A program made the translations under genes and the position numbers. Source: Methanomassiliicoccaceae archaeon (GTDB taxonomy: Archaea > Thermoplasmatota > Thermoplasmata > Methanomassiliicoccales > Methanomethylophilaceae). Taken from it: 49,186 bases of DNA. The stretch lies in contig JAEEOP010000024.1 of assembly GCA_016284295.1 (NCBI GenBank), forward strand, positions 1 through 49,186, given 5' to 3'. A model generated the notes under the pieces. It was not told the origin of the DNA. It saw nothing but the letters and a program-made list of their open reading frames with translations, and ran no database searches. Positions 47,560-48,940 of the stretch are shown here, one piece after another; the stretch's first letter is position 1, and every line of letters begins with the position of its first letter.

Positions 47560-48726
47560 TCAGAGGCTCTCCTTCAGGATTGTAACGACATCCTCGCGGT
47601 CAAGCACCCTGTATCCTCTTCCCGTGAGGATGGTGCTGTCCGCGATGCCTTCGATCATGTCCTCGGTAACGCCCAGCTCCCTGAGGTTCATGGTCACTCC
47701 TAGGTCCCTCATCCAGGATTCCAGCCTTCTCAGGCCCTCGTCGGCCACCTCCGCATCGGTCCTGCCCTCGGCATCCACCTTCCAGACCTCGGTGGCGAAG
47801 CGGACGAACCTCTTCTATCCGTACGGGCAGATGTACCTGTAGTAAGGGATGGAGACAGCAGAGAGCGTCATCCCGTGGGTCTCGTCCGTATAGGCGCCGA
47901 CACCCTTGCCGATCATGTGGACCATCCAGTCCGTGGACTTTCCCCTGGAGATCAGGGTGTTGAGCGCCCACGTGGCCGACCACATCAGATTGGAACGCGC
48001 CTCGTAGTCCTGAGGGTCGTTGAGTGCTTTGTAGGAGTTCGTGATGACGGACCTCATCAATCCCTCGGAGATGTAGTCGCTGGTGCAGTCGTCCTCGCCG
48101 GAGAAGTACTGCTCGCAGATGTGGTTGAAGATGTCGTAGATCCCGGCCACCATCTGCCTCCTGGGCACGGTGAAAGTGAATCTTGGGTTCAGTATTGAGA
48201 ACCTGGGCATCACAGAGGGTCCGAATGTATGCGTGATCTTCATCTTTACCGATTCGTTGGTGATGACGGTCCCGCCGTTCATCTCCGATCCGGTACCGAC
48301 CATGGTGAGGATGCATCCTATGGGTATCACCTTGCAATCCGGCTGGAGGTGCCTGACGAAGTATCTGTCCCACGGGTCGTCCTCGAGGTACACGGAGGCT
48401 GCCAGCGCCTTGGCATAATCGCACACGGATCCTCCGCCGACCGCCAGGATCAGATCGATGTCATTCTTCCTGGCGATGGCAATGCCCTGATTCAGCTTCT
48501 CCAGCGTGGGGTTGGGCATCACACCTGGATCCTCGACCACTTCCTTGCCGCATTCGCGGAGTATCGAAAGGACGTTGTCGTAGATTCCGTTGGACTTGAT
48601 GGATCCGCCTCCGTAGACCATCATGACGGTCCTGCCGCAGGTGCCCAGTTCGTCCTTCAGGTTGTCCAGTGCGTTCTCTCCGAAATAGATCTTGGTCGGA
48701 TTGTGATAGATAAAGTCCCCAAGCAT
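47560..48726 (-). CDS. Iron-containing alcohol dehydrogenase with in-frame TAG (possible pyrrolysine)
   Basis: Read through the TAG at 47815-47817 (codon 304), this gene encodes 388 residues, the usual length for BDH/YqhD-type Fe-ADHs. The N-terminal NAD(P) domain has FGENALDNLKDEL, VYGGGS, and GGGSVCDYAKALAA; TGSEMNGGTVI is also typical. The metal ligands are Asp and His in IYDIFNHICEQ, and two His in MVHMIGKG and DETHGMTLSA, all before the TAG. After the TAG the same frame continues KRFVRFATEVWKVDAEGRTD and runs 84 residues to TGA, matching the family's helical C-terminus. With no frameshift, this is either UAG decoded as pyrrolysine or a fresh nonsense mutation. Confidence 0.8.
47815..47817 (-). 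other. In-frame UAG codon of the Fe-ADH (codon 304)
   Basis: The only in-frame stop inside an otherwise complete 388-codon frame. It aligns in the family with a variable, solvent-exposed start of a helix (before KRFVRFATEVW), where a large residue would be tolerated. No TAG ends any assigned gene in the window. Confidence 0.8.
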
Positions 48727-48814: not shown

Positions 48815-48940
48815 TGGTTGACAGCGTGCCTGAGTTCCCGTACGCTTGCGCAATACAGTACAGACAGGTACGCGGGAGGGCTTTACTGCCGGGTTCGGAA
48901 TGGGACCGGGTGTGACTCCTCCGCTATGGCCGTCATACCA
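48815..48940 (-). rRNA. 5S ribosomal RNA
   Basis: On the minus strand the sequence has the universal 5S core, CACACCCGGTCCCATTCCGA, followed by ACCCGGCAGTAAAGCCCTCC. The ends (GGTATGACGG and GCTGTCAACC) can pair as helix I. Length is about 126 nt. No 23S or 16S is next to it; a TnpB relic and a protein gene flank it. Solitary 5S genes are known in Thermoplasmata. End positions are good to a few bases. Confidence 0.9.

Follow-up and report, generated by a model that had tools for sequence, protein, structure and literature searches.

An in-frame amber codon, probably read as pyrrolysine, in an iron-containing alcohol dehydrogenase gene of a Methanomassiliicoccaceae archaeon

Pyrrolysine is a catalytic and conserved residue of the methylamine methyltransferases. 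Within the order Methanomassiliicoccales it has already been predicted outside methylamine metabolism, and the alcohol dehydrogenase discussed below is an added member of that predicted set. The pyl system of the order has been described (PMC3941956), and pylCD together with pylS are reported in both Methanomassiliicoccales and Methanosarcinales (PMC10804542). For "Candidatus Methanomethylophilus alvus", 16 pyrrolysine proteins are predicted besides the methyltransferases, and TAG makes up 1.6% of the stops, a rarity which is taken as an argument for constant decoding of UAG (PMC4153887). In ISO4-H5 an amber codon lies in frame in 46 genes, methylamine genes included (PMC5011839). The initial annotation of the present locus had treated pyrrolysine outside the methylamine methyltransferases as a novelty, a claim which these predictions for the order overtake (PMC4153887, PMC5011839).

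The dehydrogenase gene and its amber codon

The window, by which we mean the whole stretch of DNA analysed (49,186 nucleotides), contains a gene for an iron-containing alcohol dehydrogenase on its minus strand. The features of the locus are as follows.

47560..48726, minus strand: iron-containing alcohol dehydrogenase gene, 388 codons including one TAG, with a TGA stop at 47560-47562
47818..48726, minus strand: N-terminal 303 codons, comprising the nucleotide-binding part (GGGS at 97-100) and the start of the metal-binding domain
47815..47817, minus strand: codon 304, an in-frame TAG; all of 83 close homologs have Leu, Ile, Val or Met here
47560..47814, minus strand: 84-codon tail and TGA; ADH_Fe_C 122-193 of 194, no decay
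48816..48937, minus strand: 5S rRNA gene, upstream of the dehydrogenase with 89 bases between it and the start codon; a neighbour, outside the proposed mechanism

Read from 48726 to 47560, the frame runs from ATG through 303 codons, the TAG and a further 84 codons to the TGA, and minus-strand translation revealed neither a second stop nor a frameshift within it; the 388-residue frame originally described is borne out. A plus-strand reading of 47560-48726 in frame 1 contained two stops and was dropped. The contig ends close beyond the 5S rRNA gene that precedes the dehydrogenase.

Pfam analysis of the 303-residue part returned a complete PF00465 and ADH_Fe_C only from 2 to 97 of 194 (46.9 bits), while the read-through product matched ADH_Fe_C from 2 to 193 of 194 (88.4 bits) and the 84-residue tail by itself matched 122-193 (35.5 bits; cut-off 27). 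The tail had been assigned to the family, and truncation at 303 had been said to cost the C-terminal domain; both statements hold, the latter in that about half of the domain profile is gone. PF00465 and a complete C-terminal domain PF25137, which together serve as the family criterion, are present, the domain being complete in the read-through product only. Family sequence in frame on the 3′ side of a TAG would not be expected by chance.

An AlphaFold model of the read-through protein (mean pLDDT 90.3) has the family fold over its full length, with a TM-score of 0.93 against Bacillus subtilis YugJ. Codon 304 falls within a helix predicted at 284-314 and three more helices follow in the model, so that a stop at this point would break the helix and remove the three behind it. 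Residues Asp198, His202, His270 and His284, which we take to be the metal ligands of the family, are invariant in a 31-row alignment and are all N-terminal to the TAG. On sequence and model, the product is predicted to be a group III iron-containing alcohol/aldehyde oxidoreductase.

The site itself had been called variable, which is wrong for close relatives: residue 304 is aliphatic in all 83 close homologs (Leu 63, Ile 9, Val 6 and Met 5), a set made up of the best 80 of 577 bacterial matches and three archaeal copies. All of the 80 best-matching bacterial homologs have a sense codon for one of these four residues, and TTG, one base removed from TAG, is the commonest codon at the position (24 of the 83 rows). 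Structure-search alignments place Pro opposite this residue in three solved relatives that are more distant. Because the site is aliphatic in close homologs, a catalytic pyrrolysine was judged unlikely; a long side chain at this conserved position may even reduce stability. The four other copies in the genus have no stop; one of them is a fragment that ends short of codon 304, and the remaining three all carry Leu there. Comparison with sister species thus shows that the TAG is not shared, and it is observed in the source lineage only: no TAG at codon 304 was found among the best 80 of 577 bacterial homologs or the archaeal copies from the genus (31 genomes).

Before the TAG the dehydrogenase agrees with the other rows at a mean identity of 0.688, and after it at 0.587, a ratio of 0.854. 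The same ratio averages 0.827 in 81 homologs (the 83-homolog set minus L121 and L126, which have an internal TAA but were kept in the count of residue 304), and 60 of these 81 fall below the value for the dehydrogenase. Of columns conserved at 95% or more, 19/175 are changed before the TAG and 2/24 after it. A pseudogene with a decaying tail was rejected: the tail shows no decay in comparison with the 81 homologs, and conserved residues are not altered in excess. The intact tail is compatible either with translation or with a young mutation. No relative exceeds about 65-69% identity among the best 80 of 577 bacterial matches and the genus copies, so the intact state of the tail might reflect nothing more than a young TAG. 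No unusual RNA structure was detected 3′ of the dehydrogenase TAG (z -0.14) or of that in mtmB (z -0.89); structure signals at pyrrolysine codons are not obligatory (PMC4153887).

The gene was found in 5 of the 31 genus genomes at E<=1e-40, its own included, one of the five being the fragment. Its nearest relatives, among the best 80 of 577 bacterial matches, are genes of bacteria from the gut and rumen, for the most part Clostridia/Ruminococcus, with approximately 65-69% identity over the full length. In the tree the four archaeal copies do not form one clade; since the branches are long, we claim only that the dehydrogenase gene has likely been exchanged with gut bacteria, the tree leaving direction and number of events unsettled. 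The bacterial homologs L121 and L126 contain one internal TAA each, at codons 160 and 264, which means that assemblies of this kind do contain in-frame stops produced by error or decay.

Pyrrolysine genes and TAG usage in the genome and the genus

The source organism is a methanogen, probably from a gut lineage; its genome encodes the marker protein McrA (898 bits, with the cut-off at 768). On its contig C36 mtmB, which has an in-frame TAG, stands in one row with tRNA-Pyl (anticodon CTA), pylS, pylB, pylC and pylD; the pyl genes, whose presence the initial annotation had named as a check on the proposed decoding, were all found. PylS, PylB, PylC and PylD score above their NCBIfam cut-offs. No NCBIfam model matched the mtmB product at the threshold applied, but its parts on either side of the TAG match Pfam MtmB at 1-195 and 197-450. 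The closest structure to PylS is PDB entry 8IFJ, presumably the PylS of the rumen methanogen ISO4-G1, which belongs to the Methanomassiliicoccales. PylS and the pyl operon thus suggest that the source organism is a member of this order too. A scan of the window and 33 further stretches, about 38% of the genome, found no CTA tRNA other than tRNA-Pyl. A pylS match over the cut-off is present in 73 of 100 sampled genomes of the family.

A sample of 701 kb, or 38% of the source genome (G000), yielded 606 gene calls with our own standard-code gene caller, 17 of which end at TAG. Nine of these 17 TAGs, in eight genes, were judged from Pfam matches and a script rule (a coding continuation of at least 40 codons scoring at least 30) to sit within a longer protein.

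CobN, G000:C38:9414-13166 (L141): internal TAG; Pfam match 2-447, then 450-1089
Citrate synthase: internal TAG; Pfam match 3-229, then 231-357
SfsA: internal TAG; Pfam match 1-88, then 93-137
Periplasmic binding protein: internal TAG; 51.1 bits after the TAG, no match for the part before it alone, 70.8 bits when read through
UvrD-type helicase, G000:C34:40600-43494 (L173): two TAGs; terminal PD-(D/E)XK nuclease match on read-through only
TPR protein: internal TAG; the weakest case, the first part alone being without a Pfam match
Dehydrogenase and mtmB: one internal TAG each; Pfam match on both sides

Genes outside methylamine metabolism are therefore among those with an in-frame TAG, CobN, citrate synthase and SfsA for instance. 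By the script rule a coding continuation follows 8/17 TAG, 9/52 TAA and 31/537 TGA ends; SfsA fell short of this rule and was counted from its Pfam match, and we read the continuations behind TAA and TGA as adjacent genes in the same frame. The remaining 8 of the 606 calls resemble true TAG ends, three of them low-scoring, from which we surmise that UAG can probably also terminate translation. In the sampled part of the genome internal TAGs (9) at least equal the real TAG ends (at most 8). In the sister genome G036 (160 kb) a TAG ends 1/159 calls, with continuations behind no TAG, 3/11 TAA and 12/147 TGA; in G006 (120 kb), where no pylS match passed the cut-off, TAG ends 9/98 calls and continuations follow 0/9 TAG, 1/8 TAA and 3/81 TGA. 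The source genome has two citrate synthase genes, G000:C36:23360-24709 (L175) and G000:C21:26649-27968 (L216), with one TAG each at different codons.

The 31 genomes of the genus were surveyed for CobN at E<=1e-100 (102 rows) and citrate synthase at E<=1e-60 (37 rows). In-frame stops occur in six of the CobN rows (nine stops) and nine of the citrate synthase rows (nine stops), and every one of them is TAG. Their positions mostly differ between rows. One TAG, at codon 58 of citrate synthase (query numbering), is common to five species (G089, G094, G065, G074 and G090; L211-L215), and G026 and G043 share a TAG at citrate synthase codon 13 and at two CobN positions. The codon-58 TAG is long-lived: over the 391 codons behind it, dN is 0.026-0.151 and dS 0.50-2.19, with dN/dS of 0.05-0.13 in 10/10 pairs. 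Selection has thus acted on this region during the divergence of the species, which requires that the TAG be translated or else bypassed by a downstream start, the latter being an alternative that may apply. One of the five genomes, G090, has no pylS over the cut-off and is 82% complete. Relatives carry unrelated residues at the CobN and citrate synthase TAGs (Lys, Arg, Met, Trp, Glu and Asn among them), a pattern that would fit drift.

With respect to CobN L141, the residue at the TAG site is Lys in 17 of 19 genus rows, the other two being misframed, and Asp or Ser in three more distant paralogs; the CobN copies of sister species have TAGs at other positions. CobN-like matches number five in the source genome and up to 11 in G097, a fragmented assembly in which some may be pieces.

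Readings of codon 304

We consider it very probable that UAG 304 is read as pyrrolysine by tRNA-Pyl, giving a full-length dehydrogenase, and that it is a near-neutral, lineage-specific amber codon; that the codon is decoded, which residue is inserted and that the change is near-neutral are what we infer from the sequences. The product would be a 388-residue iron-type enzyme of the YugJ/butanol-dehydrogenase kind. The codon would have originated in the source lineage by a single base change, most simply from TTG (Leu) to TAG, and would be tolerated because the genus generally translates internal UAG and rarely uses it as a stop. Pyrrolysine 304 probably has no catalytic role and would replace an aliphatic residue 20 positions past the last metal ligand.

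Were the TAG a recent nonsense mutation, UAG would terminate translation and the gene would be in the course of being lost. The patchy occurrence of the gene in the genus suggests that the dehydrogenase can be dispensed with, its TAG takes the place of a conserved aliphatic codon, and there is no close relative by which to date it; a few genes of the source genome apparently do end at TAG. The same genome, however, encodes an amber tRNA and its synthetase, TAGs also interrupt the core genes for CobN and citrate synthase, with selection evident behind the TAG shared by sister species, and the dehydrogenase frame has acquired no second stop, no frameshift and no excess of altered conserved residues, which together render gene loss unlikely. 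A functional or regulatory UAG, in which the supply of pyrrolysine (methylamine growth) would set the level of full-length protein or the residue would add chemistry, is less likely still. Full-length protein would indeed require charged tRNA-Pyl, and the pyl genes adjoin mtmB, but Leu occupies the site in the three sister copies that cover it, the unrelated residues found at the CobN and citrate synthase TAGs fit drift, and the rarity of terminal TAG suggests constant decoding, following the argument of PMC4153887.

We give the least credence to an assembly or sequencing error, with TTG or another sense codon as the true codon. Such errors should produce TAA and TGA as well, yet the in-frame stops of the archaeal rows are all TAG (dehydrogenase, 1 in 29 rows; CobN, 9 in 102; citrate synthase, 9 in 37). 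Speaking for error are the division of the genome into 45 contigs, the single base between the Leu codon TTG and TAG, and the internal TAA of L121 and L126, two bacterial homologs among the 80, in which amber decoding is not involved.

Under decoding by tRNA-Pyl, the pyrrolysine at codon 304 is probably one of several near-neutral ambers and not a new redox use of this amino acid. We lean towards the wider view that UAG is in effect a coding word in the genus, the core enzymes and the dehydrogenase being made at full length only with pyrrolysine if tRNA-Pyl is its sole reader. If this is true, general metabolism (CobN, both citrate synthase copies and the dehydrogenase) would need a supply of pyrrolysine, and one citrate synthase amber codon would have been retained as five species diverged. 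With the dehydrogenase, a soluble redox enzyme would join the pyrrolysine proteins predicted for methanogens of this kind. Comparison across the genus, above all the five-species citrate synthase TAG, opens the routine translation of UAG to direct testing. For annotation the consequence is that gene callers using the standard code split such genes in two.

Comparison with known systems

The dehydrogenase most resembles YugJ of B. subtilis (7W9X) and TM0820 of Thermotoga maritima (1VLJ), which are near-full-length top matches with a TM-score of about 0.9 and 37-39% identity; unlike the archaeal protein, they have Pro where it has residue 304. With MtmB and the other methylamine methyltransferases it has the in-frame TAG in common, as seen in mtmB of the source genome, but the TAG of the dehydrogenase is observed in one lineage only. 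In some archaea a "Pyl code", in which all TAG codons are read as pyrrolysine, was reportedly described in Science in 2025. The source genome is similar in that many proteins use TAG as a coding word, and differs in that 8 of 606 calls, three with low scores, resemble TAG ends, which stops short of demonstrating complete reassignment.

No report of an amber or pyrrolysine alcohol dehydrogenase was found by full-text literature search. An alcohol dehydrogenase is absent from the table of predicted pyrrolysine proteins for Ca. M. alvus (PMC4153887) and from the main text on ISO4-H5, to which the comparison is limited (PMC5011839). In its general features the source genome nevertheless resembles both of these methanogens, in which, likewise, ordinary genes with an in-frame TAG accompany a complete pyl cassette (PMC4153887, PMC5011839).
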